Assembly: GCA_012523405.1 (NCBI GenBank)
Contig: JAAYIN010000064.1
Coordinates: 1 to 64,000, forward strand
Origin: Clostridiales bacterium
Lineage (GTDB): Bacteria; Bacillota; Clostridia; Christensenellales; Aristaeellaceae
DNA length: 64,000 nucleotides
Reading direction: 5' to 3'
In this document: piece by piece, positions 44,061 to 64,000 of the stretch
Position numbering within the stretch: the first letter of the stretch is position 1
Layout of the letters: the number at the start of each line of letters is the position of its first letter
The notes under the pieces: model-generated
Told to the model about the DNA's origin: nothing
Database searches by the model: none
What the model saw: only the letters and a program-made list of their open reading frames with translations
Made by a program: the position numbers and the translations under genes

Positions 44061-45224
44061 TTAGTCGATATATACCACCTTGCTAGTCTTAATCGTATTG
44101 ATGCCGCCCTCTTGGCTAAACAGGAGGTTGCTTGCACTCATGCCGCCAAAGTACTCATAACCACGAAGAATGGCGATATAATTGCCGAGCATGAATAAGG
44201 GCATGAAGTTCGCAATTGGATTCACATGATCATGGGCTGTGGCAGGCAACTGGCAAACTTCAACGCCATCGATGAAGACATCTGGCTGCGTGTCTGTGAC
44301 GACCAAGACATTTCGATCAGATTTTTTCATAGAACCGACCGTCTCCACCGTACGCGAGAAGGACGCGCAATTTTGAGAAGCAACCGCCACCGTGCCGAGC
44401 TGGTCACGCTTGGTCTGGAAGTAGTCGATATGACACCAGTCCTCGCTGTCATTTAAGCAGTTCAGGCTTCCGCACAATTCAAAGAACTTTGCAGTTCCAA
44501 AATAAGCCGTTGCAAAATCGCTTCCGCTGCCTACAAAATCATATCCCAAATAGTCCTTCCATGTTTCTGCCAACGCATACATTTGATCGTCCACACGACT
44601 TAGTACATCCTCGCTGCAGACCTTTGCAACATATTCAGAAATCTCGCTGCGCAGCTCTGCCGCATCTCGGGCCGCTGCGTTACCCAAAAGCTGTCCCGCA
44701 TGGAGGCTCAAAAGAATTGTCGTGCAGACCGCTGCCACATAGGTCATTGCCTGAAAGGCGGGAGAGAATTCTTTGGCTTTGGGGATCTCAATTTTTAGTA
44801 TATGCTGTGCTTCCTTGGCCATGGGAGAATCCGGCGTTCCCGTAATTGCCAGCGTTGTGCAGCCTTTTGTAGTTGCGCGTTTCATTGCTTCGGTCACGCG
44901 TGAACCGCCGCCTGAAACGCTGATGACCATCACCAATGTTTGCTCGGGATGTTCAGTGCTGAAAACGTGGTGACGGCTTACATCAATGCAACGCAGAACC
45001 TGATAATCCATATTTTTAAACATTCGGCTGCCAAATTCCTTTGTCGCTAAAGAAGCCGCATAGGAATCACCATTGCCTGTAACTACAATATGCCGAATGT
45101 TCTTCAGCTTCTCATCCGGAATAGCTTGAGCAATGGCTTCATCTGTCAACTTGCTCAGCAAACCATCCACAAAAGCAGGATATTGGGAAAACCCTTTTTT
45201 AACGTTATTATCTCTTCCGATCAC
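44061..45224 (-). CDS. double SIS-domain protein 1
   Basis: Two SIS (sugar isomerase) domains in 387 residues, about 40-185 and 205-350. The first has GNGDSYAAS and ISVSGGGSRVTEAMKRA, the phosphosugar-binding Ser-rich loops. The second has NDSEDWCHIDYF, where Glu and His match the catalytic E-x-x-H region of GlmS/FrlB-type enzymes. Such proteins isomerise or deglycate aminated sugar phosphates. Last gene of the right-hand operon, after an MFS permease. GTG 45224 has AAGGAG at a good distance; ATG 45242 lacks a site but is possible. Substrate unknown. Confidence 0.8.
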   Translation of the reverse strand: MIGRDNNVKKGFSQYPAFVDGLLSKLTDEAIAQAIPDEKLKNIRHIVVTGNGDSYAASLATKEFGSRMFKNMDYQVLRCIDVSRHHVFSTEHPEQTLVMVISVSGGGSRVTEAMKRATTKGCTTLAITGTPDSPMAKEAQHILKIEIPKAKEFSPAFQAMTYVAAVCTTILLSLHAGQLLGNAAARDAAELRSEISEYVAKVCSEDVLSRVDDQMYALAETWKDYLGYDFVGSGSDFATAYFGTAKFFELCGSLNCLNDSEDWCHIDYFQTKRDQLGTVAVASQNCASFSRTVETVGSMKKSDRNVLVVTDTQPDVFIDGVEVCQLPATAHDHVNPIANFMPLFMLGNYIAILRGYEYFGGMSASNLLFSQEGGINTIKTSKVVYID

Positions 45225-45245
45225 TTTTACATTCTCCTTCATCTG

Positions 45246-46523
45246 TTATACAGTTACACTTTGCTGATTTGTACGCCTCTTCTTGCTCAGTGCAATGGAA
45301 ATCGAGCCTAAAATAGCTGCTGCTGCATATAGTGCGATTCCCATCACAAATGCGCCGCGGTAAGAGCCGAGTTTGTCATAGAACAGGCCAATGGAAGCAT
45401 ATAGACCGCCGCCAATTAGACTGTTGATCATCATCATCAGCGACCAGATCTGTGAATAATGCTTTGTTCCCACGATGTTGCGCGCCAGCAGCGGACACTG
45501 CACCATATACATGCTGCTGCCCAATCCAACAATGAAAATAGCCACATATACAAAGATGGGGTTGCGGTAGCTCAGGAACATCAACATGTAGCCAAGCCCT
45601 GTGGTAACAGTACCCCACAGAAGACCTGCCTTGATGCCAAACTTGTCGTTGATCCTACCCACAGCCAAGCTGCCAAGCGTGCCGCCAAGGCTTGAGATCA
45701 CGCCTACAAGGGCGCCAAAGTTGATGGTCTGTTTGAGTTCCATGGTTGCAAAGGAAGTCGAATAGCCCGCAATTCCGCTGCCATAGCTGTACAGCACACA
45801 GGCTGCCCATGCAATATATAGTAGCGGCATACGGAAGGCCTGCTTACGGGTCAAATCATACGCTGAATCCTGAGCAGCCGCCGCGACGGCGACATGATCG
45901 TCTGCCTCTTCATCCGCACCATAGGGCTTGCAACCGACCTCTTCAGGGCTCTTGATCAGGATGAATACGCCTGGGATCGTAATAACGGTTGCCATAGCCG
46001 CCATAATGAGGTATGCATTGCGCCATCCAACGGCTGTAATCAGTTGAACAGACAGCAAGGTATACAGCATGGTTGCGGCAGTTCCGATTGCGGTCACAAT
46101 ACCCAGCACCGTTCCGTTCTTCTTTCGAAACCACATGTTGAGGATAATGGGTGTAGTGACAAAGCCGGTAAAGGCTTGCGCGATACCGATCATCGCACCC
46201 GAAATATAAAACATCTCCACAGTTCGATAGGTTGACATCAGTGCCAGACCTATCACTTCAAGCACCGACGCGAATCCAATCACCAAACCAATCCGTTTGG
46301 TTATTAGAAAACGCGCCGCTGTAGTATACAGCAGAGCCATTGAAACAGCCTGAATGCTTGTGAACATTGTGAACTGGCTAACCTGGCATCCAAGTTCCGA
46401 TGTAATCGGTGCAATAAAATTACCGATAGCCGCCATACAGGCTCCGCCCGTACCCACCTTCATCAAAATACAAGCAATAACAATTTTCCATGCATAATGC
46501 ATTTGTGGCTTATCTTTTTTCAT
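45246..46523 (-). CDS. MFS transporter, OFA-like
   Basis: Twelve-helix major facilitator of 425 residues, with the inter-domain loop at about 195-225 and a pattern like the oxalate/formate antiporter or monocarboxylate group (ISGAMIGIAQAFTGFVTTPIILNMWF; GRINDKFGIKAGLL). The substrate is unknown; its place between the BtpA-like and SIS genes suggests it imports the compound they process or exports a product. GAGGATAAT precedes the ATG. Confidence 0.85.
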   Translation of the reverse strand: MKKDKPQMHYAWKIVIACILMKVGTGGACMAAIGNFIAPITSELGCQVSQFTMFTSIQAVSMALLYTTAARFLITKRIGLVIGFASVLEVIGLALMSTYRTVEMFYISGAMIGIAQAFTGFVTTPIILNMWFRKKNGTVLGIVTAIGTAATMLYTLLSVQLITAVGWRNAYLIMAAMATVITIPGVFILIKSPEEVGCKPYGADEEADDHVAVAAAAQDSAYDLTRKQAFRMPLLYIAWAACVLYSYGSGIAGYSTSFATMELKQTINFGALVGVISSLGGTLGSLAVGRINDKFGIKAGLLWGTVTTGLGYMLMFLSYRNPIFVYVAIFIVGLGSSMYMVQCPLLARNIVGTKHYSQIWSLMMMINSLIGGGLYASIGLFYDKLGSYRGAFVMGIALYAAAAILGSISIALSKKRRTNQQSVTV

Positions 46524-46560
46524 ATTATCCTCACTTCATCTGCGCATAAAAGGCATCGTA

Positions 46561-47382
46561 TCAGACTTTTGCAGATTCCTCTTCCAATTCTCTCACGTTG
46601 CGCACATAGTCCGCTACAATAGAACCAATGATCGGACCGCCCCATTTTCCGCCTTCAAAAGCTGTACCTACCAAAGCACCGTCAGCGTAGCGCAGACGTT
46701 CTTTACAGTTTTCCGCTGTGGTAGCGCCGCCCAGAATAACGGGGAAGTTGCCCGCCGACTTCACATCCTTCACCAAACGCTCGTTTTGCTTAAAGTCGCG
46801 ATCACATACTTCAATCGCGTCCGCACCAAGGCGCATGGAGGTTTGAGCAAGATTGCGGATATTGTCGGCGTTATATTCGCCCACACGGTGATAGCCATAA
46901 ATTTCTGAAAGCATTCCGATCTCTAAGGCTTCGATCTTTTTGCGATACTCTGCCACCTTGAGCGGCTGAGCGGAAACCGTGCCGTATGCGGATTCGGTGC
47001 TGCCTACCAGAGCGGAGCAACGCGTAAAATCAGCCCCAGCAGCCTTGCATACTGCCAAAGACGGCGTAATGCAGTTCCACATGATCTGAGCGCCCAGAAT
47101 AAAGTCGGGACCCACCGCATCCCTAACGCGGGCAGTCACCGCAGCCAAGCCTGCTACGCGGCCATAGTCCGTGTCATCTGTTGTGGGATAGAATACATCC
47201 ACAGTTTGGATCAGTCCGCCATCAGCGCCATTTGCTTTGAGGGTTAGGCAGTCCTCAATAGCCTTCTTGGTCATTTTCTCCAAATTTCCCTCTTGATACA
47301 GGGGCGTGCCAAGCATTGGCAACAAATGCACCAGACCGATTACTAGTTTTTTACCGTTCAGTTCGTTGAAACAAGTTTTCAT
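46561..47382 (-). CDS. BtpA/SgcQ family TIM-barrel protein
   Basis: TIM-barrel protein of 273 residues of the BtpA/SgcQ family. Patterns: LVIGLVHLLPMLGTPLY, IEDCLTLKANGADGGLIQ, IMWNCITPSLAVCKAAGADF and LGGATTAENCKERL near the phosphate-binding end. SgcQ lies in an E. coli sugar operon of unknown substrate, and BtpA was linked to photosystem I; no activity is established. Here it sits in a SIS/PfkB operon, supporting a sugar-metabolic role. ATGAGGAGA precedes the ATG. Confidence 0.82.
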   Translation of the reverse strand: MKTCFNELNGKKLVIGLVHLLPMLGTPLYQEGNLEKMTKKAIEDCLTLKANGADGGLIQTVDVFYPTTDDTDYGRVAGLAAVTARVRDAVGPDFILGAQIMWNCITPSLAVCKAAGADFTRCSALVGSTESAYGTVSAQPLKVAEYRKKIEALEIGMLSEIYGYHRVGEYNADNIRNLAQTSMRLGADAIEVCDRDFKQNERLVKDVKSAGNFPVILGGATTAENCKERLRYADGALVGTAFEGGKWGGPIIGSIVADYVRNVRELEEESAKV

Positions 47383-47517
47383 TATTTTCTCCTCATATGA
47401 TCAATACGGAAGCCAAAATCATACTGTCCTTTCATCATTAATTGCCCAGCGACCATTCTATATTCGCTACATATGTGAGTGTACCGGTAAGCCGTTTATG
47501 AGCACTGATGTCAATCG

Positions 47518-47541
47518 GGTATGCGGTGATGATCGCATACC
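47518..47541. other. hairpin beside the transposase remnant
   Basis: GGTATGCG (47518-47525) / CGCATACC (47534-47541), 8-bp perfect stem, 8-nt loop, no T-run. Between btpA-like and the IS110-type fragment; could be part of the element's non-coding end. Confidence 0.4.
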
Positions 47542-47579
47542 GATATTGCAGCATCAGCAACAATAAGGCCTAGACTTCC

Positions 47580-47795
47580 ATGATTTACGTCGGCATTGAT
47601 CATACCAAGCACAATCATTTCACATCTGCCCCTGCAGCCGATGGCGAAGTGCCCGTGGAATCTTTGAAATTCTCAAACAACGGTGATAGCTTCCGTTTGC
47701 TATCCTCTAGGCCTTATGAGCTTTGGGAGGATAGCCTCATCACCGGTATTGAATCAACGGTTCACTACGGCAATAACCTTGTGAAGTTATGCGTT
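47580..47795 (+). pseudogene. IS110-family transposase N-terminal remnant
   Basis: Plus-strand frame beginning MIYVGIDHTKHNHF, with ADGEVPVESLKFSNNGDSF and GIESTVHYGNN, the N-terminal DEDD (RuvC-like) half of IS110 transposases with its first Asp and Glu still present. The similarity stops after about 70 residues; the ORF continues to 47888 as unrelated sequence running into the HAD gene on the other strand. A relic of an insertion inside the minus-strand operon, between the btpA-like and HAD genes. Confidence 0.75.
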
Positions 47796-47840
47796 TTCGG
47801 GTGCTTTTGGTCTGTGCCATTCATCAGCACGTACTGTTTA

Positions 47841-48500
47841 TTACGCATCGGGTGCCTGTTTTTTCAGAATCCCGATTACATCATTTAAATCCCGCACGTG
47901 GTAGTCACATTGCTGTAGCATTTCTTGGGGGACAGCGGAAATGCCATGCATATGTGCCACTGATATACCTGCCCTCAAAGCAGCGGTAATCCCGCTAGCG
48001 GAGTCTTCCACAGCAAGGCATTCCGCGGGGTTTACCCCCAGCTCCCTGCAGGCATGCAGGTAAAGATCTGGCGCAGGCTTGCGATTGACAACCAAATCTC
48101 CAGTATAAACGCCATCAAAACGCTCGCGAAGTCTAAACAGCTGGGCATAACCCTCCATCCATGCACTGCCATTGGATGTGACCACGGCTTTTTTGCCCGA
48201 ATAACCAGCTAAGAATCGAAGTAAATTCTCGAATCCAGGTAAGGTACGTACCTCACCCAAATCAATCAGCCTCTGCGTTTCTTCGCCCCAGTATCTGCGC
48301 AGCCCATCCGGATCACATGGCAAATGCTCTGCCATGAATCGATCAAACTCATCAGGAGGCGAACCGCCAACCTGCGCATACAGTTCTCGATCCAAATCGT
48401 AAGCAGCATTCTTCTGTAAATAGTCTCGCCAGATTTCATAGGCTTGCTCCTCTGTATCCAGCAATACACCATCCATATCAAACAATATGGCTTTATACAT
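47841..48500 (-). CDS. HAD-superfamily phosphatase/phosphoglucomutase-like
   Basis: HAD hydrolase of 219 residues with motif I FDMDGVLLDTEE, the cap domain, motif II VVTSNGSAW, motif III Lys in NRKPAPDLYL and motif IV VEDSASGI. Resembles beta-phosphoglucomutase and small sugar-phosphate phosphatases; DxDG with a following VLLD is common to both. ATG 48500 has AGGAAGGAGAGG upstream and overlaps the MFS gene by 8 nt. Probably dephosphorylates or isomerises a sugar phosphate from the SIS/PfkB pathway. Confidence 0.82.
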   Translation of the reverse strand: MYKAILFDMDGVLLDTEEQAYEIWRDYLQKNAAYDLDRELYAQVGGSPPDEFDRFMAEHLPCDPDGLRRYWGEETQRLIDLGEVRTLPGFENLLRFLAGYSGKKAVVTSNGSAWMEGYAQLFRLRERFDGVYTGDLVVNRKPAPDLYLHACRELGVNPAECLAVEDSASGITAALRAGISVAHMHGISAVPQEMLQQCDYHVRDLNDVIGILKKQAPDA

Positions 48501-49701
48501 GTTCCCCTCTCCTTCCTGTGTTTCGCCAGCCTGCGCCAATGATGAAAATCAGGGCACCTGCAAAAGCAAAATAAGCGGTGAGGTGAAACACTGTGCGTAA
48601 ATCCGTTACTGTTACCAACCATGATGAGAGCGCATTTGCCGCAATCATTCCAAGACCGCCCACCGAGAATGCTGCCGCTTGCGCAGTAGCGCTATATTCT
48701 GCCGGAACATTCTTTGCGACGAAGCTTTGGCAAGCGGGGATGGACAAGCCCAAGCCAAACATCTGCAAAAGCAGGCAGACGATTGCCCAGCCGGGAGAGG
48801 ATGCCATGCTCAGGCATATGTTTTTCACACCAAACCCGCACATAGCAATAGCTGTCAAGCAAGTTACGCCGAACTTTTTCTCAAGCCGTGTATAAAACAG
48901 CATCACCGGAACCTCTACCACTGCCAGCACAAACATCGCAATTCCCAGCAGACCTTCCGCTCCTCCCAGCTGCGTAAAATAGACTGAAAAGAATGTGAAA
49001 AACACGCCAGAAGGAATGTTGTAAAGTACGCTGCCAAGCAGCAGGGCGACGAATTTTCTGTTTTTCAGCAACGCCTTCATCGCCGCACGAAAACCAGCAC
49101 CGTCACGAGACCGTGATTGAGGCTTTGGCTGATTGGGCAGCAACAAGGCAAATATTGCGATGAACATCCCAAAGAAAGCCAATAGCAGCGGCAAGCATTT
49201 CATGCCAAAATGCTCCACCGCCACGCCAATCACTATGGAAACCAATGCAAAGCTCAACGAGCCAAACGATCTGGTGAATGCGTAATTGATCTTGGCTCTA
49301 TCGGCGTTCAGCGCAGAAATCCATCCGCCGGGCAAAGACTGTACGCCAACGCAAACGCAGCAGAATACAATGGCGCAAATTGTCACGCCAGCGGTGCTTT
49401 GCGTACGCTGGATGATATAGTAGGAAATAGGCGCAAGCACTGCCGCCAGCACAAATAGCATTCGATTTAACTGCCAACGATCACATAGATTTCCCAGCAC
49501 CATAGGTGCAAACAAGGAAGCAATGCTCGTTGCGGTTGCCACTCGTGCAATCGCGTCATACGCTAGCCCCTGCCTTGATAGCATCAACGAAAAAAAGCCT
49601 GTATGGACAGCCATCAGACAATAATAGCTGACATGAAGCAGGCAGAAATACCGAGTCAACTTCCGATTCTCGGGAGCAGTCATTTGCATTCTTGTATCCA
49701 T
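48493..49701 (-). CDS. MFS transporter, sugar-type (MFS_1-like)
   Basis: Twelve-helix permease of 402 residues. Early helices contain YYCLMAVHTGFFSLMLSRQGL and NLCDRWQLNR, with GGWISALNADRAKINYAFTRSFGS later, like nucleoside or sugar proton symporters of the LacY/NHS type. Coupled to the HAD gene. ATG 49701 follows AGGCAGGA; the ORF start at 49719 is a TTG lacking a site. Substrate unknown. Confidence 0.8.
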   Translation of the reverse strand: MDTRMQMTAPENRKLTRYFCLLHVSYYCLMAVHTGFFSLMLSRQGLAYDAIARVATATSIASLFAPMVLGNLCDRWQLNRMLFVLAAVLAPISYYIIQRTQSTAGVTICAIVFCCVCVGVQSLPGGWISALNADRAKINYAFTRSFGSLSFALVSIVIGVAVEHFGMKCLPLLLAFFGMFIAIFALLLPNQPKPQSRSRDGAGFRAAMKALLKNRKFVALLLGSVLYNIPSGVFFTFFSVYFTQLGGAEGLLGIAMFVLAVVEVPVMLFYTRLEKKFGVTCLTAIAMCGFGVKNICLSMASSPGWAIVCLLLQMFGLGLSIPACQSFVAKNVPAEYSATAQAAAFSVGGLGMIAANALSSWLVTVTDLRTVFHLTAYFAFAGALIFIIGAGWRNTGRRGEHV

Positions 49702-49730
49702 CGGTATCCTGCCTTTCAAATTATGCCGTC

Positions 49731-49784: not shown

Positions 49785-50189
49785 TTATGCACCAAGCAAG
49801 GTGACTGTATATTCGCGCTTAGATGGCTCACAGTATTCTGCAAAGAAAATACCCTGAGACCCACCCAACTTCAATTCTCCGTCCTCCACAATGAAATCCA
49901 TGCTCTGCTTTCCTACGGCAGCCTTGCTATGCGCTGCACACCGTACTGCATCGCTCTTGCAATGGAAATCATTTCGAGCAGGCCAAATGCGATTGAAGTC
50001 ATCTATGATATCTTCATGACCCTTAGGATCATAGAAAGAGGTGCACAGAATTCCAGCATCATCGTAGGGAGTATTGATGACTGCAATTCCACTCTTCACA
50101 CCACTTAAAGCCACAATTTCCTTGACACGCTCGGTGATTTCAACCAATGTGCCCGCTTTATCAGCCTGAATCGTTTCGACTGTATACAT
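49785..50189 (-). CDS. degenerate single-domain YjbQ (UPF0047) protein
   Basis: UPF0047/YjbQ-fold protein of 134 residues. The usual first active-site motif PHTTAG is PYDDAG here (residues 41-46), losing the His, while the second His region (His87) and the C-terminal LGGSQGIFFAEY are kept. Family members have a weak thiamine-phosphate synthase activity, but the physiological role is uncertain. Probably a non-catalytic partner of the tandem YjbQ protein encoded nearby, or of the SIS proteins that alternate with it. Confidence 0.78.
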   Translation of the reverse strand: MYTVETIQADKAGTLVEITERVKEIVALSGVKSGIAVINTPYDDAGILCTSFYDPKGHEDIIDDFNRIWPARNDFHCKSDAVRCAAHSKAAVGKQSMDFIVEDGELKLGGSQGIFFAEYCEPSKREYTVTLLGA

Positions 50190-50201: not shown

Positions 50202-51359
50202 TCAAATGATTTCGATTTTACTGCTGCGAATGGTGCCGTTACCGGGTTGCGCCCAAACGCCGCCGCCGCGGAAAAAGGGCTCGGATGTCAGCGTGGAAAC
50301 ATACCCCGCTAAAATAGCACCCGGAACATAGTTCATCATCGCCAGCAAGAACTCAAAGCCTTCCGGTGCATCAGGCACCTGGCAGATTTCAATATCTGCA
50401 CTGATTCCAAAATCGTCCTTATTACCATTAGCGATCAGCAGTACCGGTCGTCCAATGCCAGCAGCCTGACCAACGGTCTCGCCGATTCGAGTACGATCAG
50501 TGGCTTTTTTATCCGCTGCAATCACCGTGCCGATATTCTGGGGACATTTTTGGAAGAAGCCGATATGGCACCAGTCCTCGGCATCATCGGTAGCCGTCAT
50601 TTTTCCTGCAACCTCTACCATTTTAGCGCCCATAAAGAAGGCAGATGCAAACTGAATATCATCGCCAATGTAGTCGTAAACACTGAAATCTTTCCAGGTC
50701 TCAGCAAGGCGGTACATATGGTCGTCAATTCTCTCCAGCTCGCCAGCCCATGCGGCGGTATTTTCCGTGATTGCTGCAGCCATCGCGTCCATAGAACCCT
50801 GCGCGCAGCAGCCTGTCACTTCGCCTAGCTTTGCCGCCAGCATATACAGACCTGTTAAGGATGCGTAGTAATTGCGCAAACCGGGATTGGAATTCTCAAA
50901 GGCAGGGGTGTTGACAATCAATCTGTAGGCTGCTTCCTCAGCAACAGGAGAAGAAGGATTGTTCGTCAGTGCCAAGGTTACGCATCCGTAATGGTTGGCA
51001 CGGCGGAGTACTTCCTGTACGCGTGCAGGACCGCCTGAGCAGCTGATGCCGATCACCATGGTGTTTTCGCCGCCGATTTTATCAAAGGGCATATAGCGCG
51101 CTACATCAATGGCTCTTTCATAGGAAAAATCATTTCCAAACCTGCCTGCAAACTTACGAAAGGCAGGAATGGCTGCCATAGCGGCTACATAGGAATCACC
51201 GCAGCCGGTGATAATGACCCTGCGAACTTTCTTTAGCATATCATCGGGCACGCCTTGCTCGATTCCTTTACGTACACCCGCAATCTGGTCTGCGCAAAGC
51301 TCAGGCAGACTCATACACTGCAGTCGCAGAGGATTGTTAAACGCATTTTTATCCATCAT
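50202..51359 (-). CDS. double SIS-domain protein 2
   Basis: 385 residues, two SIS domains. The first contains GCGDSYVAAMAA, ISCSGGPARVQEVLRRA and the conserved NPGLRNYYASL. The second contains YIGDDIQFASAFFMGAKMVE, TDDAEDWCHIGFF and RIGETVGQA. Conserved Glu/His as in the other paralogues. ATG 51359 has GGGAGG 7 nt upstream. Lies between the single and tandem YjbQ genes with 12- and 18-nt gaps. Confidence 0.82.
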   Translation of the reverse strand: MMDKNAFNNPLRLQCMSLPELCADQIAGVRKGIEQGVPDDMLKKVRRVIITGCGDSYVAAMAAIPAFRKFAGRFGNDFSYERAIDVARYMPFDKIGGENTMVIGISCSGGPARVQEVLRRANHYGCVTLALTNNPSSPVAEEAAYRLIVNTPAFENSNPGLRNYYASLTGLYMLAAKLGEVTGCCAQGSMDAMAAAITENTAAWAGELERIDDHMYRLAETWKDFSVYDYIGDDIQFASAFFMGAKMVEVAGKMTATDDAEDWCHIGFFQKCPQNIGTVIAADKKATDRTRIGETVGQAAGIGRPVLLIANGNKDDFGISADIEICQVPDAPEGFEFLLAMMNYVPGAILAGYVSTLTSEPFFRGGGVWAQPGNGTIRSSKIEII

Positions 51360-51377
51360 CAATTTACCTCCCTCAAT

Positions 51378-52181
51378 TTACTGTGCATATACCGCAACAT
51401 AATAGCTGCGGGGGCGCGGTCCGTCATATTCTGCAAAAACCACCGCTTGCTCTGTTCCAAGCATCGGCTTACCATCCCTGACGGGAAGGGTAAACTGAGA
51501 GTCGGTTAATGCTGTCTTGACATGGCCGCCTGCGTCCGAGGCAGTCTCTCTGTGTTTAAAGTCCACGCGGGTGGGAATCATACGCTCGATATCCTCCATC
51601 ACATCGCGAGCAGCCAAAGGATCGCGAGGGGCCACGATCAGCCCTGCTGTGGAGTGGAGCATGGACACATGGCAAATGCCATCGCGTACACCGCTTCTGG
51701 TTACGATCTGTTCGATCGATTCGGTCAAATCGTGCATTCCCATATAGGTCGTCTCCACATTTCCCTTTTCCAGATACAGCTCCTTGCTGATGATCTGAAC
51801 ATAGAACTCTCTGGGACGCGGACCATCAAATTCCACGAACACCAGTCCTTGTGAAGAACCCAACACTGTTTTTCCTTCATGAATAATCAGCGTTGCAGAA
51901 GTACCCATCATCGCGGATTTCACATGACCGGAGGCATCGTAGGGGGAGTCTTGATGTTTGTAGCTCACCCGCGTTGGAATATTTCGATCTATTTCATCCA
52001 GTAGATCATCCAATCCACGGGGGTCCCAAAAAGAAGTAATCGCTAAACCTGCTGTTGTGTGCGGAATAGATACCAAACACACGCCCTCTTGAACGCCGCT
52101 CTCAGCCACAATTTCATTGACTTGGGCAGTGATGGAGGTACAGGATCGAAATTCTGTCGTCAGCTTTCTATGATAAAACAT
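51378..52181 (-). CDS. tandem YjbQ-YjbQ protein
   Basis: Two complete UPF0047/YjbQ domains in 267 residues: 1-133 and about 143-267. Each keeps the active-site motifs, IPHTTAG with His41 and GHVKSA with His86 in domain 1, and LHSTAG with His176 and GHVKTA with His220 in domain 2. The C-terminal EFDGPRPR/EYDGPRPR signatures are doubled too. YjbQ proteins are usually single-domain trimers of about 130-140 residues, so a fused pair is unusual. AAAGGAGGAA precedes the ATG. Confidence 0.85.
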   Translation of the reverse strand: MFYHRKLTTEFRSCTSITAQVNEIVAESGVQEGVCLVSIPHTTAGLAITSFWDPRGLDDLLDEIDRNIPTRVSYKHQDSPYDASGHVKSAMMGTSATLIIHEGKTVLGSSQGLVFVEFDGPRPREFYVQIISKELYLEKGNVETTYMGMHDLTESIEQIVTRSGVRDGICHVSMLHSTAGLIVAPRDPLAARDVMEDIERMIPTRVDFKHRETASDAGGHVKTALTDSQFTLPVRDGKPMLGTEQAVVFAEYDGPRPRSYYVAVYAQ

Positions 52182-53367: not shown

Positions 53368-53411
53368 GCATACTTCCTCCTTTATCATCATTCAATATAG
53401 TTATCATCATA

Positions 53412-54419: not shown

Positions 54420-54479
54420 GAAAACTCCTCCTACGTCTGTATATCTAGCACTGCCACAGTATGAAAAACGAAACATTCG

Positions 54480-54905
54480 CTATGGCGTACTGTTACCCTC
54501 TACATCCACAACGGTTTGATACGCAGCTTCGCTGTAAGTTGCTAACGCCTGCTTATACTGATCAGTATGCAGGCTGTCAACCGCTGCAAATAAATAAGCA
54601 AAAAAGATAAAAACCACCATCAGCCCCGCTAAAGAGCTCAGTAGGGTTTGATTGCGAAAAAAAGGAATTCCCTGACGCAAAAATGTATCCGACATAAAAA
54701 TAGCAGGGCTGATCATCCATAGACAAATGATGAGCGCAGTAAGATAATAGATACCTGTATCATAGGGTCCCGCCGCAACAGGCGGCGGTGTGCCTAACGC
54801 AAGGATCAGCACCGCCAATGATAGGAGGTACCATATTACCGCAACAATCATTTTCCACGGTTTTTGAGATCGAAACCCCAGTAGTTTACGAAGCGCCTTT
54901 TTCAT
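54480..54905 (-). CDS. unknown small membrane protein
   Basis: 141 residues with a basic N-terminus (MKKALRKLLG) and three hydrophobic helices at about 18-38, 50-70 and 85-110, and an acidic C-terminus. I do not recognise a family. It lies between the RhaT-like permease and the first PfkB gene with a good ribosome site (AGGGGAG), and could be an accessory subunit of that permease. Confidence 0.55.
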   Translation of the reverse strand: MKKALRKLLGFRSQKPWKMIVAVIWYLLSLAVLILALGTPPPVAAGPYDTGIYYLTALIICLWMISPAIFMSDTFLRQGIPFFRNQTLLSSLAGLMVVFIFFAYLFAAVDSLHTDQYKQALATYSEAAYQTVVDVEGNSTP

Positions 54906-55921: not shown

Positions 55922-57085
55922 TTACGGAACATCAATTGGGGAGAAATAGGTTGGAATAAAGATTGTCGGATCCATTCCTCCTCGGAACATTGGCTCTCCA
56001 ATAGTGGTATGACGGAATCCAGCAAAGATAGCGCCTGGCAGATAGGCATACAACTGCGAAAGGAAAGCAAATTGTTCGCTTGGCATAGGGAATGGGCAGT
56101 AGCGGACCTTTTCCGTGATTCCGATTTCTTCAGGTGTTTTATCGCAGAACACAAGCACATCCCGCTTTGCATTTGCGACCATGGCATTAACCGCGCGAGC
56201 AATATTCGGCACATTCGCATCGCTGCTGCGTACCAGCACCAGCTCGCCGCATTCATCCGCAGTGCCCATCATGGCATTCACATGCTGATAGTTTTCGCTG
56301 TCAATCACCGTACAAGCGTCGCCCGACAGTTCAATCACTTTGGCTTGAATGAATTTTCCCGCCCAGAACATGGAGCCGTCCCCAACAATCTCCAGATACT
56401 TCTTATCCATCCACGCAATCGCGGTGGTGAAGCAGGCGTCATCAATCACATTGAGCTGTGCGAAGAAAGCATCGTGGTATGCGGATACCTGTTCGCGCAG
56501 TTGGTCAACCTCTGGCTCGCCCGTACGGCTCTGAGCCATTGCAGCGGCTAATATGGTCAAACTAACCACATTGATGTAGTAGGTACGCAAGCCTGCATTA
56601 TTGTCGCCCGCAGGGCAATTGAGATAGTAAAGGATATCCGCCTCCTGCGCCGTGCGGGATTTGGGACTTCCTGTAGACGCAATGGTTGTCACGCCATGAC
56701 GCTTACATTGTTCCAGCGCCTCATTCGTTCGGAAAATTCCGCCCGATACGCTGATGAACAAAGCGATCGTATCGGAGCAGTCCTCTGCAAACTCATAATG
56801 ACGGCTCAGTTCGATGGCTTCCACTGCTTCAAACTCCACATCAGGCAGGTAATGGGCAAAGGCGTCTTTGATAGCAAAAGCAGCTATGTTGGAGTCGCCG
56901 CATCCGGTAGCGATGATGTGCTTTGCTCGGCGAACGGCAGGGATTTTGACAATCGCACGTACCTGCGCCGCCGCTCGGTCAAACTGTTCCATACTCAAGG
57001 GATCTACATCCATACATTGCGCATGAAAGCTATCTTGAAAATAGAATTTTCTGTAATATTTTTTGTCATTAAGCCTTTGGTACAT
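55922..57085 (-). CDS. double SIS-domain protein 4
   Basis: 387 residues, two SIS domains: GCGDSNIAAFAI and ISVSGGIFRTNEALEQC in the first, NNAGLRTYYIN replacing the NPGLRxYY pattern. In the second the common EDWCH is ENYQH (in IDSENYQHVNAM), still with Glu and His but otherwise diverged. AAAGGAG precedes the ATG. Between SIS protein 5 and the first PfkB gene. Confidence 0.8.
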   Translation of the reverse strand: MYQRLNDKKYYRKFYFQDSFHAQCMDVDPLSMEQFDRAAAQVRAIVKIPAVRRAKHIIATGCGDSNIAAFAIKDAFAHYLPDVEFEAVEAIELSRHYEFAEDCSDTIALFISVSGGIFRTNEALEQCKRHGVTTIASTGSPKSRTAQEADILYYLNCPAGDNNAGLRTYYINVVSLTILAAAMAQSRTGEPEVDQLREQVSAYHDAFFAQLNVIDDACFTTAIAWMDKKYLEIVGDGSMFWAGKFIQAKVIELSGDACTVIDSENYQHVNAMMGTADECGELVLVRSSDANVPNIARAVNAMVANAKRDVLVFCDKTPEEIGITEKVRYCPFPMPSEQFAFLSQLYAYLPGAIFAGFRHTTIGEPMFRGGMDPTIFIPTYFSPIDVP

Positions 57086-57100
57086 ATCACTGCTCCTTTA

Positions 57101-58306
57101 TTATTCCATGCTCCACGTCTGCTTGCGGAAATCATATCGGCCGCAAAAAAAGTTATGCTCATTTACCGCCGCCTGATAGCCCGCGAGCAGGCTTCCTGGG
57201 ATAAAACTCACAAAGGGCGACATCCATTGCTTTGGTGCCTTGGCAATGCGGCATACAAATGCTTTGCCTGCAGAAGCCATGGAATTATAGCCCACTGCGC
57301 TTTTGCCGTAAAAGTTCAAGGAAGGATCAAGCTCTGTATTTGAGTTTTCAAACACAGATGGATCTGCATCACTAACGACCTCAGTGGGACGATGCTGCGC
57401 CAGACAGCCAAAAACGGTGTCGCGCATACGGCTAAGGCTGGGATCAACTTCATTGATCATAATCACCATGCCAAAGCTGCTTGGCTCACGATGAAAAAAG
57501 CCGATATGTGCAAACTCTTCGGACGTGGTGTGATCACAGAACACGCCGCCGCATTCGATGAATTTCTGCTCCACAAACTGAGCGGAATATCCTTCGTTCC
57601 AGTCAGCAATGATTTCAAACCTCGTAAGATCCTTCATAAGCAATGCCTGAGAAAACATTTGATCATCAATGCGATCAAAATCTTCCATAAAGGTCATTGT
57701 ATAGTCTGCGATCTGTTTGCCGATCTCTTCAAATTGCTGAACCGTGGTATGTCCATTGCAAATGCCAAGATAAGCGCCCAGCGCTGCAATCCCGACCATG
57801 CTTGCATAATAGGAACGCAGACCGGGTGTATTGCATCCGTCCGGCGTTTCTACATTGAGGATATGTTTAGCTACTTTACCGGCCTTGGAATCCGAATTGC
57901 GAGTAATTAATACAGATTCCAAGCCTAATGCATTCGCCTTTTCCAAGGCATCTGCCACTCGCTCTGAACCGCCGCTGAAACTGATAGCTACCACCAGAAC
58001 CTCTTGCGGACGAAAACCTTTACGGATTTTTTCATCGGTGTAAAAGCAGCAGAAATCCATAATATCTGGGCTGTTACTTTTTTGTATGCCGCTAAGCTTC
58101 TTAAAACCAGACAGCATCGCGCCTACAGCAGAATAGGAATCACCGCATCCCGTAAGGAGTACGCGTCGAATTCTTCCAGCGGTTTGATCGTTTAATACGC
58201 CGTGCAGCTTGTCCAAATCAAAGCATTTCTCCCGCTGAACCTCAGCCATGGTTTGAAGTGCTAAAACTTGGTCCCTCACGGAGTTATCATATATTTTTTT
58301 ATCCAC
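57101..58306 (-). CDS. double SIS-domain protein 5
   Basis: 401 residues, two SIS domains: GCGDSYSAVGAM, ISFSGGSERVADALEKA and TPGLRSYYASM in the first. In the second SEEFAHIGFF, the version closest to the E-F-x-H motif of AgaS/FrlB-type deaminase or deglycase SIS enzymes, so this copy is a good candidate for the catalytic one. GTG 58306 with GGGAGGA upstream; the ORF extension to 58354 lacks a site. Confidence 0.82.
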   Translation of the reverse strand: MDKKIYDNSVRDQVLALQTMAEVQREKCFDLDKLHGVLNDQTAGRIRRVLLTGCGDSYSAVGAMLSGFKKLSGIQKSNSPDIMDFCCFYTDEKIRKGFRPQEVLVVAISFSGGSERVADALEKANALGLESVLITRNSDSKAGKVAKHILNVETPDGCNTPGLRSYYASMVGIAALGAYLGICNGHTTVQQFEEIGKQIADYTMTFMEDFDRIDDQMFSQALLMKDLTRFEIIADWNEGYSAQFVEQKFIECGGVFCDHTTSEEFAHIGFFHREPSSFGMVIMINEVDPSLSRMRDTVFGCLAQHRPTEVVSDADPSVFENSNTELDPSLNFYGKSAVGYNSMASAGKAFVCRIAKAPKQWMSPFVSFIPGSLLAGYQAAVNEHNFFCGRYDFRKQTWSME

Positions 58307-58353
58307 CGATGATCCTCCCTGTTTTCTCATTGTACTGATGGGCAAACTATCCA

Positions 58354-59307
58354 TTACAACGCAAATTCTTTGCGATATTGATCATACAGTTCCTTCACCT
58401 GAGCCATGGCCTCATCCCTTACAGCCGCAAAGTCCTGTATTACGCCAAACTGGCGAATGTTGAATGCGGAGGCTACGTTGGCGACAATACCAATCATCAA
58501 CGGGTCATAGCCCTCAACGTATGCATACAGGGCAGCGCCTGTGGAGGTGTTGCCGCAGCCCGTAGGATCCACAAATGGACCCGGTGCAGGCGGGAGATAA
58601 TATGCATGATCCTTTGTAACAGCATACAGACCTCTCTCGCCCACACGGAACAACGTGAAATCCACAGGCAGCGTTTGCAGCTTCTGAATGCATGCTTCAT
58701 CACCCTGGACATCAAAAAGGTTTTGAGCCTCTTCGATGTTCAACGAGAAGATATCGACATATTGGCACGCATAAATCACCTTATCCAGATATTTGTTCTG
58801 AGAGCTTGGTCCTTCGATCTCCCACATGACTTTGAAACCATCACGGTTCTTAATAGCGCCAAGCTGATCCCAAAAAACGCGATCATAATTCTGCGCTAAA
58901 TAAATGCCTTTTGTATCACCCTCACAGGTGAAATCGCCAAAATCCGCGGGAGACGTTTTCATATAGCCCTGATTCTGTGTCCACTCGGACAGAAATGACA
59001 AATCACCAATTATGGTTTTATCAAACGAATAAGTGGTATCTTCATTGTAGACTAGATAGCTGTGATTGCAGCTTTCAGAGACAATCCTGAAGCCCTTGCT
59101 TTCTACTCCGTTTTTCTCCATCCATGGGTCAAAAAGCGGATGGTAATCCTCGCCTACTCTGCTACACTGCATTACGTCGTCCGTAAACAGCTTCACGCCG
59201 CTGTATGCGAAGGTAGCGGGTCCTCCAATGCTCTCCTGTGTATGCTCGGTTCCGTCCGCAAAGCGAACTGTATCCAACATAACATTGCCGCCAATTACAT
59301 ATTTCAT
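58354..59307 (-). CDS. PfkB-family protein with Asn in place of the catalytic Asp (2)
   Basis: 317 residues, ribokinase/PfkB fold: GGPATFAYSGV (28-38), SLNIEEAQNLF (188-198) with the N-x-x-E motif, and DPTGCGNTSTG at 247-257. Asn253 stands where the catalytic Asp is expected, as in the paralogue at 54932. Directly downstream of the ABC importer and upstream of SIS proteins 5 and 4, so both copies are embedded in the same pathway. Confidence 0.83.
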   Translation of the reverse strand: MKYVIGGNVMLDTVRFADGTEHTQESIGGPATFAYSGVKLFTDDVMQCSRVGEDYHPLFDPWMEKNGVESKGFRIVSESCNHSYLVYNEDTTYSFDKTIIGDLSFLSEWTQNQGYMKTSPADFGDFTCEGDTKGIYLAQNYDRVFWDQLGAIKNRDGFKVMWEIEGPSSQNKYLDKVIYACQYVDIFSLNIEEAQNLFDVQGDEACIQKLQTLPVDFTLFRVGERGLYAVTKDHAYYLPPAPGPFVDPTGCGNTSTGAALYAYVEGYDPLMIGIVANVASAFNIRQFGVIQDFAAVRDEAMAQVKELYDQYRKEFAL

Positions 59308-59355: not shown

Positions 59356-60315
59356 TTACAGCTGCGACTCCGCAGCTTCTGCTTGCATCAGCTTCTTCTT
59401 TGCCTCAAGCAAACGCCGCTTTTCCTGCGTAGAGCGATAAGCGCTTACAATGAAGTAGAAAATGATGATTAATAGGAATGGAAGCGCTGACAGGAAGTAA
59501 GAGTCAACGATATAGGGCTTTAGGTAATTGGTAATTGCATACGCGAGGCCAAATACAAAGCTCATGATCGTCGCGCCCACAGGCATTCCGTTTCCGATGG
59601 TTGCCGCTGCCATACCGATGAATCCACGGTTTGCGGTAATGTTTCGGATGAAGAAGTTGTTGTAGCCCATAGATAAGTACATACCGCCAAGGCTTCCGAC
59701 AGCTGCCGACAGCACAAAAGCAAGTGTGTAGATCTTTCTGGGGTTAATACCAACGGATTCTACCGCATGAGGATTCTGACCGGATGCGCGGATACGCAAA
59801 CCGATTTTCGTGCGAAACAGCAGGAACCAGACCAAAAACACCATGACCAACGCGATGTAAGTAAACAGGTTATGCCCCGATAGAATGGCCCCTAGTATGG
59901 GGATGTCCTTAATCAGCGGTATATCAATCGAACCCAGCGACAGGCTTTGAACCACGCCTGCGGTCGTGTTCTTTGTTCCAGTTACAAGGTAAACCACGAA
60001 TACCGTTCCCGCAACCAGCGACATATTCAGTGAAATGGACATCAGATATAGGTCCGCCTTCATCACGAAGGATGCAAAACACAGGAATAGCGCCAATATT
60101 ACGGAGCAGGCCATACCGCATAGAATACCCAGCCATACATTCTGGAACATTGCGCTGAACATAACACCAGCAAGAGCTGAGGTCAGCATCATGGCCTCAG
60201 CAGCCATGTTCAGCAGTCCGGCTTGCTGCGAAATGGTAGAGCACAGCGCCACAAAAATAATAGGTGTGGAAATACGGATTAGGGAGTAGATAAAATTCGT
60301 GATGTAATCAACCAT
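59356..60315 (-). CDS. BMP-type ABC permease (NupQ-like)
   Basis: Inner-membrane permease of the BMP/nucleoside ABC family (RbsC-like fold), 319 residues with about nine helices. Motifs: LLNMAAEAMMLTSALAGVMFS, RASGQNPHAVESVGINPRKIY (the ATPase-docking loop) and MAAATIGNGMPVGATIMS. The ATG overlaps the last base of the upstream permease stop. Pairs with the permease at 60315. Confidence 0.9.
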   Translation of the reverse strand: MVDYITNFIYSLIRISTPIIFVALCSTISQQAGLLNMAAEAMMLTSALAGVMFSAMFQNVWLGILCGMACSVILALFLCFASFVMKADLYLMSISLNMSLVAGTVFVVYLVTGTKNTTAGVVQSLSLGSIDIPLIKDIPILGAILSGHNLFTYIALVMVFLVWFLLFRTKIGLRIRASGQNPHAVESVGINPRKIYTLAFVLSAAVGSLGGMYLSMGYNNFFIRNITANRGFIGMAAATIGNGMPVGATIMSFVFGLAYAITNYLKPYIVDSYFLSALPFLLIIIFYFIVSAYRSTQEKRRLLEAKKKLMQAEAAESQL

Positions 60316-61430
60316 TATGCTACTTCTCCTTTCTTCTCCGCCAGCTCAGCACGACGAGAAATCCTGAAGATGACCTTCCGACGAGTGCCGCCCAAGAATT
60401 CTTCTGCAGCAACAAACAGGATGATGACTGCCGATAGCATGGTGACCATCTCAACAGGAATGTTGGTGTTGGCATTCAGAACAGCCGCAGCCTGGCGAAT
60501 GTAAGCCATAACAAAGGCTGTAATGGGCACAAATATGGGTTTCTTCTTTGCCATAACGGCCACCAATAGACCATCCATACCAACATTGGTCAGCAGGGAC
60601 AGATAGTAGCTATTGTACAAGCCAAATACCTCTACCGCTGCAGCAGCGCCTGCGAACAGACCGCCGATTAACTGCGCAATAAAAATAATCCGCTTGGCAT
60701 TGATGCCAGAGTAAATTGCAAATTGCAGGTTATCGCCGCAAAGGCGGATTCTCATACCCAACGGCGTGCGGTAGAACACAATCAAGCCGATAATCACGCC
60801 GATGATTGCTACCCATATACCGCCCGTAAAGTTACTGCCATTCCAGTAACGAGTGAAGCGCGCGGCATCAGGATAGTTTGGAGTACCAAGGAAGGAAAGG
60901 CTGCGGTCTGCAATGGTTCCCTTGATGAGCCAAAGCGCAGCATAAAGACAGAACATGTTCATGATTGTGGACGTAACCATTTCATGGGCGCCCAAGCGTT
61001 CACGTCCAAAGGCGGGAATCATCAAAATAGCCGCACCCGTGAGCATGCAACCCCCAGTGATGATGATCATGTTAACAATCTTAGGAAGAGTGGGCATAAC
61101 ATTCAGACCGAAGGTTGTGCCAAACATGATAAGCAACACGGGAATTGGCGCCAAGTTGATAGCACCCTCACCAGCCATGTTCAAACGTCCCGCAGAGTAA
61201 ATGTAGCACATGCCCATACCGGTAAGCATATAGGAGGCATATTTGGCTAACACCTGACCAAAGCGGCGTTTCGTCATGAACGGACCGAGCATAAAGGTAC
61301 GAACAGCTTCGCCTGCGTCGGCGTCGCTCATTAGGATAATGACTACAATGCAGATCAGAAATGCGATAACGATTCCCAGAAGCACCCGGAGGAACTCAAA
61401 TACGGAATCAATAAATTCTACTTTTTTCAA
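60315..61430 (-). CDS. BMP-type ABC permease (NupP-like)
   Basis: 371 residues, about ten helices: LNMAGEGAINLAPIPVLL, LRMRIRLCGDNL-type docking loop (seen as GMRIRLCGDNLQFAIYSGIN) and VGMDGLLVAVMAKKKPIF. The TTG start at 61430 overlaps the ATPase stop TGA. Forms the translocation channel with the NupQ-like protein. Confidence 0.9.
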   Translation of the reverse strand: MKKVEFIDSVFEFLRVLLGIVIAFLICIVVIILMSDADAGEAVRTFMLGPFMTKRRFGQVLAKYASYMLTGMGMCYIYSAGRLNMAGEGAINLAPIPVLLIMFGTTFGLNVMPTLPKIVNMIIITGGCMLTGAAILMIPAFGRERLGAHEMVTSTIMNMFCLYAALWLIKGTIADRSLSFLGTPNYPDAARFTRYWNGSNFTGGIWVAIIGVIIGLIVFYRTPLGMRIRLCGDNLQFAIYSGINAKRIIFIAQLIGGLFAGAAAAVEVFGLYNSYYLSLLTNVGMDGLLVAVMAKKKPIFVPITAFVMAYIRQAAAVLNANTNIPVEMVTMLSAVIILFVAAEEFLGGTRRKVIFRISRRAELAEKKGEVA

Positions 61431-62977
61431 AACAGATCCCCCATTTCATCAGGCGTCATACTTTTAACGCCAAGCATATATTCGCCAAGCTCGTTGGCTG
61501 TCAGGGATTTAAGGTCTGTGAACTGCGCTACAAAGCCACCGTCTTTCATGACAAGCAAGCGATCTGAAACCTCCATGATTTCGTTGAGGTCGGAGGAAAT
61601 CAGCAATACACCATAGTTCTTCTCGCGGGTGTATTTGACCAGCAGGCGGCGAATCAGATCGGTGGTACCAACGTCGATACCACGGGTGGGCTGATTAGCC
61701 AGAATGACGTTTGCACCGCTGCAAAACTCGCGTGCAATAATAACCTTTTGAATATTACCGCCGGAAAGGAAGCGTATAGCGGAGTTACCGCTGGTACAGG
61801 CAATTTCGAATTCCTCTATGCATTGATCCACAAACTTGTTCAGTTCTTTGACATTGAGGAACGGACCCTTCTTAAACTGAGGGCTATCTAGGTAAATAGA
61901 GGCAATATTGTCTCGAATCGACAGGTTTTGAGCAACCCCGTACTTCATCCGGTCCTCAGAAATATGAGCGAGTCCCATTTGACGGATTTGCTTGATATTC
62001 TTTCTGTCTGTCTCCTTGCCATTGAGCACAATACTGCCCTCCGTACGCGTAACCAAACCTGAAATGATCTCAGACAGCTCGGTTTGACCATTGCCTTCAA
62101 CGCCTGCAATACCCACAACCTCACCTGCGCGAACGCCAAAGGAGAGATTCTTCAAAACGCGTTTGCCGATGTCGTTCACATAGTTTAACTTTTCAACATG
62201 CAAGGTTACATTCGACGGAGTCGCCTTTTCTTTATCGATTTTTAGAATTACGTCCCGTTCTACCATCATGCGGGACAGCATGGTAGCATTCAGATCCTTA
62301 ATTTCGCCATGACCAACCACGCGTCCATGACGAATAACCGTGCAACGATCGCACAGTTCCATTACCTCTTCCAGTTTGTGAGAAATGAAAATAATGCCAT
62401 AGCCTTTTTCCCGCAGCAATTTCAGCTGTACAAAGAGCTCGCGGGTCTCCTGGGGCGTAAGCACAGCGGTAGGCTCGTCCAGAATCAGGACTTGAACGCC
62501 GCGGATCAGCGCCTTTAGCAGTTCTACCTTCTGCTTGTAACCAACGCTCAAATCACGAATTAGGCTGTTAGGGTCCACAGCCAACTGGTACTTCTTTGCC
62601 GCATCGCTTACTAGCTGTACGGCCTTTTGAGAATCATAGAGTTGTCCTCTGCCAGGCTCTGCGCCAAGCATGATGTTATCTGCTACGGTCAGATTAGGTA
62701 CCAACATAAAGTGTTGGTGAACCATACCAATGCCCTTATCAATTGCGTCCAAAGGATTGGCGATTTTTACTTCTTGGCCGCGGATGTAAATCTTTCCCTC
62801 TTGACTGGTTTCATGTCCAAAGAGGACTTTCATCAAAGTTGTTTTTCCTGCGCCATTTTCACCGATAAGGGCATGAATCTCGCCTTTGTTAACCGTCAGC
62901 GATATGTCCTTATTGGCCATAAACCCGTTTGGATATACCTTCGTAATTCCTTCGATTCTAAGAAGTTCATTCGGCAT
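61427..62977 (-). CDS. BMP-type ABC ATPase (NupO-like)
   Basis: Double ATPase of 516 residues powering the importer. First half: Walker A GENGAGKTT (about 37-45), signature LSVGYKQKV, Walker B ILDEPTAVL. Second half: GVEGNGQTEL in place of a standard Walker A, signature LSGGNIQKVIIAREF. This is the organisation of nucleoside and ribose family importers. AAGGAG precedes the ATG. Confidence 0.93.
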   Translation of the reverse strand: MPNELLRIEGITKVYPNGFMANKDISLTVNKGEIHALIGENGAGKTTLMKVLFGHETSQEGKIYIRGQEVKIANPLDAIDKGIGMVHQHFMLVPNLTVADNIMLGAEPGRGQLYDSQKAVQLVSDAAKKYQLAVDPNSLIRDLSVGYKQKVELLKALIRGVQVLILDEPTAVLTPQETRELFVQLKLLREKGYGIIFISHKLEEVMELCDRCTVIRHGRVVGHGEIKDLNATMLSRMMVERDVILKIDKEKATPSNVTLHVEKLNYVNDIGKRVLKNLSFGVRAGEVVGIAGVEGNGQTELSEIISGLVTRTEGSIVLNGKETDRKNIKQIRQMGLAHISEDRMKYGVAQNLSIRDNIASIYLDSPQFKKGPFLNVKELNKFVDQCIEEFEIACTSGNSAIRFLSGGNIQKVIIAREFCSGANVILANQPTRGIDVGTTDLIRRLLVKYTREKNYGVLLISSDLNEIMEVSDRLLVMKDGGFVAQFTDLKSLTANELGEYMLGVKSMTPDEMGDLF

Positions 62978-63000
62978 TCGTTTCTACTCCTTAATGAAGT

Positions 63001-63030
63001 GAGGCAAGTGGCGGCTTCGCCACTCGCCTC
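63001..63030 (-). other. stem-loop after the BMP gene
   Basis: GAGGCAAGTGGCG (63001-63013) / CGCCACTCGCCTC (63018-63030), 13 bp with one A-C mismatch and a 4-nt loop; no T-run. Lies between binding-protein and ATPase genes, a usual place for expression-balancing stem-loops. Confidence 0.55.
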
Positions 63031-63062
63031 TTTAAATCATGTGTAATAAGCTGCCTTAAAAA

Positions 63063-64000
63063 TTATTTTACGAATTCAGCATCCTTATTGTCGCGATAGG
63101 TTGCAAAAGCATCGTAAGATTCAAAGTCAAAGTACGAAACTACTTTGATTTCGCCGTTAGCGATCTTTTCGGAAATTTCAGTAATCTGCTTCTGAACGTC
63201 TTCAGGGGTGTTTTCCTTATACCAGTCGTTCTCAGCCAGACCAGTGCCGCCTACAGCAATACCGTAGAGGTTGTTGCCAGCCTCGATGCCGGTAGCTTCG
63301 CCGTTAATGTTTGCAAGAATCAACTCTACGCAAGGCTCAATGTTCTTAAGCATGGAAGTAACCATGGTATCATAGCCCTGTACGTCACCAACGGACTTGA
63401 AGTACCCATACTGATCATAATCTGTGCCAATAATGAACTTGCCGCCTGCAACGCCGCCCTTTTCATCAGCCGCCTGCATAGCGCCCAGTGCTACAGAACC
63501 ACCTACATTGTAAACATAGTCGCATCCGTTATCCATTAAAACGTTTACGGATTCGTAGTCACCTTGTACGGTAAGCTCGCCCATGTAGGTATACATCATA
63601 TCTACATCCAAGCCCATTTCTTTAACGGCATATTTGTAGCCGCAAAGCCAACCGGTTCCAAAGTCATTGGTGATCGGAACGTCCAGATTGATAACAGCAC
63701 CAATCTTGCCCGTCTTGCTCATCAAAGCAGAGTACACGCCTGCCAAGAAAGAACCTTCATTCTGAGCAAAAGAAATACCATAGATATTACCCGTGTCGCC
63801 AAAGTCAGTGGAAGGAGCGCTATCATACAGGATGAACGTGGTGTCTGCCCATTCGCCGTTCTGGGACATTTCAATGATGGTGTCGGAGATGTACCAGCTC
63901 ATGGCCATAACGTAGTCATAATGCTTGGTATCCAGAGCATCGACTAAGGAGTTTACAGCCTGCGCCGAGTCTGCACCATATTCAACCAGAGTTACATCAT
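63063..64000 (-). CDS. BMP-family substrate-binding protein, 5' end beyond the window
   Basis: Binding protein of the BmpA/PnrA family that serves nucleoside-type ABC importers. The frame is open to the window edge, so the signal peptide and start are not visible; the visible part is about 312 residues. Seen: ILYDSAPSTDFGDTGNIYGISFAQNEGSFLAGVYSALMSK, the GxVxxLDVPI-type pattern in IGAVINLDVPITNDF, YVYNVGGSVALGAMQAADEKGG and IGTDYDQYGY. This is a periplasmic-binding-protein type I fold with ligand contacts typical of purine nucleosides, although the ligand here is unproved. Confidence 0.88.
   Translation of the reverse strand, partial: DVTLVEYGADSAQAVNSLVDALDTKHYDYVMAMSWYISDTIIEMSQNGEWADTTFILYDSAPSTDFGDTGNIYGISFAQNEGSFLAGVYSALMSKTGKIGAVINLDVPITNDFGTGWLCGYKYAVKEMGLDVDMMYTYMGELTVQGDYESVNVLMDNGCDYVYNVGGSVALGAMQAADEKGGVAGGKFIIGTDYDQYGYFKSVGDVQGYDTMVTSMLKNIEPCVELILANINGEATGIEAGNNLYGIAVGGTGLAENDWYKENTPEDVQKQITEISEKIANGEIKVVSYFDFESYDAFATYRDNKDAEFVK

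Follow-up and report, generated by a model that had tools for sequence, protein, structure and literature searches.

Operons for the use of Amadori products (frl and fra) combine an SIS deglycase with a PfkB kinase. SIS and PfkB proteins also occur together in an operon of 19 co-directional genes, about 20 kb on the minus strand, in the stretch of Clostridiales (Aristaeellaceae) DNA analyzed here (the window: 64,000 nucleotides, positions 1–64000 of the 75,426-base contig JAAYIN010000064.1 in assembly GCA_012523405.1). Unlike in frl and fra, however, the SIS proteins score far under the deglycase model, the PfkB proteins lack the catalytic Asp, YjbQ and BtpA proteins are added, and there are up to five SIS proteins. 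On balance, the sequence comparisons favor the reading that this operon serves the catabolism of nucleoside-like compounds (ribosides), which are probably broken down by a route not yet described. Pfam identifies five SIS proteins, two PfkB proteins, one tandem and one single YjbQ (UPF0047), BtpA, HAD, two MFS transporters, Bmp, and ABC parts, in agreement with the gene content listed in the original prediction from the DNA letters. The suggestion made there of an undescribed catabolic system also fits, since no SIS or PfkB protein of the operon reaches an NCBIfam cut-off and no description was found in the open-access literature: no title or beginning of an abstract there describes such a system, in a collection that mostly leaves out subscription papers and in which a differently named paper could escape.

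To compare the operon with its relatives, 84,980 species genomes were scanned with an SIS alignment, that is, by SIS similarity alone. The pattern was matched by 236 stretches, of which 116 encoded relatives, and the best 80 of these 116 were kept, giving 71 loci. Their gene content was determined by BLAST with the window proteins; several loci come from one genome or from close species, so that the 71 are not independent.

The SIS proteins are SIS1 (57101–58354; PF01380, 34.4 bits), SIS2 (55922–57085; 49.8 bits), which in close relatives is usually encoded immediately 3' of SIS1, SIS3 (52195–53391; 40.4 bits), SIS4 (50202–51362; 44.4 bits), and SIS5 (44061–45242; 44.7 bits). With 386–417 amino acids they consist of the SIS part alone, without an N-terminal glutaminase domain, and SIS2 to SIS5 share 22–36% identity with SIS1. 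In an alignment with the host's own GlmS (7 of 134 cluster members omitted for length), the Lys, Glu, and His of the GlmS isomerase site, which we take to be K485, E488, and H504 of the Escherichia coli enzyme, are kept in all 132 SIS proteins, SIS1 included. The model of SIS3 (pLDDT 91.8) has the GlmS isomerase domain as its closest fold among the 50 chains listed, 49 of which are GlmS/GFAT and one Lmo0035, and the phosphate-loop serines are also shared with GlmS. Because of this fold and these residues, the SIS proteins are predicted to carry out GlmS-type chemistry at C1–C2 of a sugar phosphate. They are nevertheless set apart from GlmS itself: besides lacking the glutaminase domain, they carry Arg122 (127 of 132) and Glu270 (132 of 132) where the host's GlmS has Asp and Gly, and they remain under the GlmS cut-offs, the best scores being those of SIS5 (66.9 vs. 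381 and 65.7 vs. 418 bits). All five residues are kept in each of seven distant SIS proteins. The curated NCBIfam models were searched with four of the five SIS proteins in complete form, SIS5, and both PfkB proteins, and none of these reaches any cut-off. A GlmS-like C-terminal Schiff-base Lys was considered as a family feature and rejected; it occurs in SIS3, SIS4, and SIS5, but the [TSA]SK motif is found in only 16 of 127 relatives. The same genome has a second SIS cluster (contig C47, 5035–17651) with a 365-aa SIS protein; judged by eye, the genes accompanying it resemble those for a sugar kinase, a sugar ABC importer, an amidohydrolase of the D-aminoacylase kind, a RidA-type protein, and a D-amino-acid racemase/dehydratase-like protein.

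PfkB1 (58354–59307) and PfkB2 (54932–55909) are 39% identical and pass PF00294 with 49 and 38.9 bits (cut-off 25.8). The model of PfkB2 (pLDDT 94.8) has ribokinases and nucleoside kinases as its closest folds among the 50 chains listed, the nucleoside kinase 3kd6 having the top query TM-score of these (0.74). The catalytic Asp of PfkB proteins acts as a general base. The motif DPTGCGN, singled out in the original prediction, proved to be important because its last residue (Asn257 in PfkB2) replaces this Asp. Asn stands for the Asp of GAGD in all 62 PfkB cluster members, and in the PfkB tree the Asn type forms one clade (63 of 63 Asn; support 0.994), while the 21 other PfkBs included all have Asp. 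The operon clade shares its fold with nucleoside kinases and ribokinases of the PfkB family (3kd6, MJ0406, BthNK) but differs from the three aligned solved relatives, 3kd6, 2c49, and 3b1r, which keep the Asp (GAGD or GCGD). We infer that the Asn-type PfkB either works on an acceptor for which no general base is needed or is something other than an ordinary sugar kinase. Five consecutive Asn-type PfkB genes occur in one locus (L043, 13892–18714).

To our knowledge, YjbQ and BtpA/SgcQ are old and widespread families with no settled function, and YjbQ has no accepted physiological role; the YjbQ model TIGR00149 is typed "hypoth_equivalog" in NCBIfam. The tandem YjbQ-YjbQ fusion (51378–52181) passes the cut-off of this model (196.5 vs. 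67.75 bits), and the single YjbQ (49785–50189) matches PF01894 with 72.3 bits. Where the solved proteins 1xbf, 1vmh, and 1vmf read INENADP or VNENADP, the window domains read TSFWDP or similar; the Asn-Glu after HTTAG is absent from all 71 YjbQ domains that the pattern scored (36 of 107 were left unscored). Another solved YjbQ, 2p6c, likewise lacks Asn-Glu, so that this pair is not universal among solved YjbQs. The BtpA/SgcQ protein (46561–47382) matches PF03437 (92.2 bits) and stays under the cut-off of TIGR00259 (95.3 vs. 153.4 bits); no clear relative was found among solved structures (best E 0.035). A BtpA that is 40% identical to that of the window lies beside an SIS gene on a plasmid of Streptosporangium sp. 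NBC_01495 (L101, 653–9029), near genes for 6-carboxytetrahydropterin synthase and the genes folE and queE; this may be a cluster for deazapurine nucleoside biosynthesis.

The case for ribosides comes from the genes neighboring the relatives, whose families (those present in at least four loci) were identified through a single representative of each BLAST cluster. At least one of nucleoside hydrolase, purine nucleoside phosphorylase (PNP)/uridine phosphorylase, ADP-ribosylglycohydrolase, and deoxyribosyltransferase is found anywhere in the locus in 36 of the 71, a BMP-type ABC system in 28, and a nucleoside-type enzyme or a BMP system in 55. Within 4 kb of SIS or YjbQ lie genes for nucleoside hydrolase (24 loci), PNP/uridine phosphorylase (12), a 700-aa ADP-ribosylglycohydrolase (13), deoxyribosyltransferase (11), and BtpA (11). 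Seven such genomes contain 32 nucleoside hydrolases in 34.9 Mb (~0.9 per Mb; Neobittarella excluded), and the 24 of 71 loci are therefore far above background, the non-independence of the loci notwithstanding. Neobittarella massiliensis (G323; L048, L055, L081, and L121–L123) has 58 PF01156 matches in a 3.2-Mb genome, compared with 2–7 in the seven others; several of these genes are in tandem runs, and one pair, in a place without SIS, has a PRAI-like gene and a PfkB gene of ordinary type as neighbors. In L084 and related loci, paired ADP-ribosylglycohydrolase-family proteins of ~700 aa are encoded upstream of PfkB-PNP-SIS-YjbQ.

In the window, the operon begins with the importer. The BMP/PnrA-type substrate-binding protein is cut by the window edge (63063–64000) and complete in the contig (63063–64187; PF02608, 105.6 vs. 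24.1 bits), and its relatives in the PDB are BmpA, TmpC, and BmpD. It is followed by the ATPase with two nucleotide-binding domains (61427–62977; two PF00005 stretches) and permeases 1 (60315–61430) and 2 (59356–60315), both PF02653. The operon thus resembles BMP-ABC nucleoside uptake coupled to hydrolase or phosphorylase catabolism in importer type, and its relatives do so in their neighboring genes, but the window operon has no N-glycosidase gene. A Xan_ur_permease gene (42480–43940), convergent and downstream of the operon, also counts for nucleosides.

Several observations weigh against nucleosides or ribosides as substrates. No nucleoside hydrolase or phosphorylase was found by Pfam in the window operon, and the single PF01156 match of its genome lies outside it. 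Both a nucleoside-type enzyme and a BMP-type system are missing from sixteen of the 71 loci, some of them on short contigs, and many minimal SIS-YjbQ loci carry sugar-type ABC importers rather than BMP. PRAI-like genes (seven loci, within 4 kb of SIS or YjbQ) and xylose-isomerase-like TIM barrels (five loci) would suit Amadori or ketose chemistry too, amino sugars are the usual substrates of GlmS-type SIS proteins, and two of the four PfkB-SIS-BtpA triads described below (L126 and L127) show no nucleobase genes among their neighbors.

The gene association itself recurs in the genomes of other gut bacteria, an outcome in favor of the original prediction: at least three SIS genes, tandem YjbQ, and Asn-type PfkB occur together in 8 of the 71 loci, which exceeds chance. 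In Parablautia (L036 with the upstream L120), every gene type of the operon except MFS1 and HAD is found, namely BMP, ATPase, both permeases, PfkB1, PfkB2, BtpA, the 141-aa protein, the further permease, SIS1 to SIS5, tandem YjbQ, YjbQ, and MFS2 types, with a nucleoside hydrolase 3' of the set. An Oscillospiraceae metagenome-assembled genome (L034, a cut-off contig) has the same set as L036 from permease 2 on, its SIS5 being truncated by the contig end. Six Lachnospiraceae loci (L028–L033) contain about two thirds of the gene set (both permeases, PfkB1, SIS3, tandem YjbQ, SIS4, YjbQ, permease, two MFS2 types, SIS1, and SIS2); the upstream stretch, fetched for L028 only, encodes DeoR, BtpA, BMP, and the ATPase. 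A plasmid search with SIS3 gave seven records, all under 60% identity (three of the seven inspected).

The set is rare. A search for tandem YjbQ (E 1e-3) gave no match in any of 16 genomes of the same genus and matches in 5 of 40 relatives, the host genome among them. The host genome was the only match for PfkB2 (1e-20) among 297 genomes of the order and for a PfkB profile (1e-30) in an evenly drawn 398-genome sample of the phylum, where an SIS profile (1e-40) matched the host genome and four others; the first pass of these searches was loose, and remote copies may be missed. This distribution suggests transfer. Base composition was rejected as a sign of transfer and gives it no support, the GC content being 0.484 within the operon and 0.496 elsewhere in the window.

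Two smaller modules, each found on its own in far relatives, can be recognized. An SIS gene is directly followed by YjbQ in 51 of the 71 loci, and the Asn-type PfkB clade lies within 4 kb of SIS or YjbQ in 51. The other module is a PfkB-SIS-BtpA triad with an Asp-type PfkB, present in all four other phylum-sample genomes with an SIS match and also on a Mesorhizobium plasmid, beside a BMP-ABC system. The window operon has the appearance of these two modules merged and multiplied. One triad (L124) continues into deoC (274 vs. 117 bits), FdrA (529 vs. 433), AllG (318 vs. 27), and a hydantoinase-like gene, and another (L125) is accompanied by a BMP-ABC system, a cytosine/purine permease (127 vs. 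23.5), dihydropyrimidinase (498.5 vs. 393), and xanthine-dehydrogenase-like subunits that stay under their cut-offs. Triads L124 and L127 adjoin ECF-type importer genes (CbiQ family, PF02361) instead of a BMP system.

In the riboside pathway that we propose, the order of steps and the substrate being inferred, the BMP-ABC system would import a riboside, as the importer family suggests. From the riboside would come a pentose phosphate, possibly with an amino group, on which the SIS proteins may act as GlmS-type aldose-ketose isomerases or as deaminases; the adjoining steps might, as a guess, fall to YjbQ and BtpA. That SIS and PfkB are present in several copies probably reflects a range of related substrates. 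Transport of bases or co-substrates could be the task of the MFS proteins and the second permease, and dephosphorylation that of HAD. A variant of this pathway, decidedly doubtful at present, is that the SIS enzymes and their YjbQ partners, not a glycosidase, act on a riboside phosphate whose sugar is opened, in glycosylamine or ketosamine form, for example in ring-opened or ureido-type nucleosides, and that the Asp-less PfkB performs a non-kinase or unusual phosphoryl transfer. If so, this would be a new way of dismantling ribosides, and YjbQ would gain a physiological role.

The original prediction had offered Amadori products, amino sugars, or unusual nucleosides as substrates; the neighborhoods favor nucleosides or ribosides and make the other two less favored. 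For Amadori (glycation) products, a PfkB would phosphorylate the ketosamine and SIS deglycases would release sugar phosphate and amine, many SIS proteins serving many amines. The known frl/fra pairing, the retained Glu/His acid-base pair, the PRAI-like genes, a TIM barrel weakly matching fructoselysine 3-epimerase (20.6 bits vs. 305), and the amidohydrolase-like and RidA-like genes seen by eye beside the further SIS protein of the genome are in keeping with this. We nevertheless regard it as unlikely: the frl-type comparison proved weak, as SIS1 reaches 22.5 bits of the 430 required by the FrlB (fructoselysine-6-phosphate deglycase) model, which lists no other operon SIS, and GlmS is what the SIS3 model resembles most, none of the 50 chains listed for it being labeled a deglycase. 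The NCBIfam search also gave no fructosamine kinase match for PfkB1 or PfkB2, and the neighboring nucleoside hydrolase, PNP, deoxyribosyltransferase, and deoC would be left unexplained. Amino sugar degradation, in which the SIS proteins would be isomerases resembling glucosamine-6-phosphate deaminase and fed by kinases, agrees with the GlmS isomerase domain as the closest fold of SIS3 and with weak NagB-II matches (20 to 27 bits vs. 430), but no curated cut-off is reached, no deacetylase or hexosaminidase is among the neighbor families named (those in at least four loci), and most loci have a nucleoside-type importer and neighbors, which makes this quite improbable.

Alternatively, the operon might not encode a single pathway at all but be a mosaic, its modules having been acquired separately and serving different compounds. 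The SIS-YjbQ and PfkB-SIS-BtpA modules are found apart, the gene order of the window differs from that of L034 and L036, an IS110 fragment precedes BtpA-MFS2-SIS5, and, judged by PfkB2, none of 296 other genomes of the order has the set. The same parts are, however, assembled in other orders in Parablautia and the Oscillospiraceae genome, which suggests joint use, and we consider a mosaic improbable.

The remaining genes complete the riboside operon proposed here. From 5' to 3' on the minus strand the order is BMP, ATPase, two permeases, PfkB1, SIS1, SIS2, PfkB2, a 141-aa membrane protein with no assigned family (54480–54905; no Pfam match, relatives in 5 of the 71 loci), a permease (53412–54476; relatives in 14), SIS3, tandem YjbQ, SIS4, YjbQ, MFS1 (48493–49719; PF12832/PF07690), HAD (47841–48539; PF13419, 103.6 bits; start possibly at an internal ATG), BtpA, MFS2 (45246–46523; PF07690), and SIS5. 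The permease is an intact co-directional gene, as predicted, but its designation as RhaT-like lacks backing because it has no Pfam match. About 18 intact genes in one direction had been predicted; they are intact and co-directional, with no internal stop in 20 translations (18 from the window, and BMP and DeoR from the contig), and their number is 19. Gaps range from small overlaps to 85 nt, with the single exception of 458 nt between HAD and BtpA, where an IS110 transposase N-terminal fragment lies on the plus strand (47580–47888; PF01548, E 5e-6, 26.8 bits, under the 29-bit cut-off). Promoter-like sites (25 found, 27.1 expected) and terminator-like sites (22 and 20.8) are at chance level, and a single transcript for the whole operon is therefore plausible. 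No match was found by an Rfam search of 40000–64000, and no tRNA by a search of the window. A DeoR-type regulator gene (contig 64651–65472) is divergent and upstream of BMP, and beyond it lies a gene cluster of hexuronate type, identified by eye.

A PfkB clade that uniformly lacks the catalytic Asp and reaches up to five copies per locus, as in L043, is a sharp enzymological puzzle. Because YjbQ and BtpA share a conserved context with nucleoside enzymes, a single SIS family, and this one unusual PfkB clade, their function can be tested directly in culturable bacteria.

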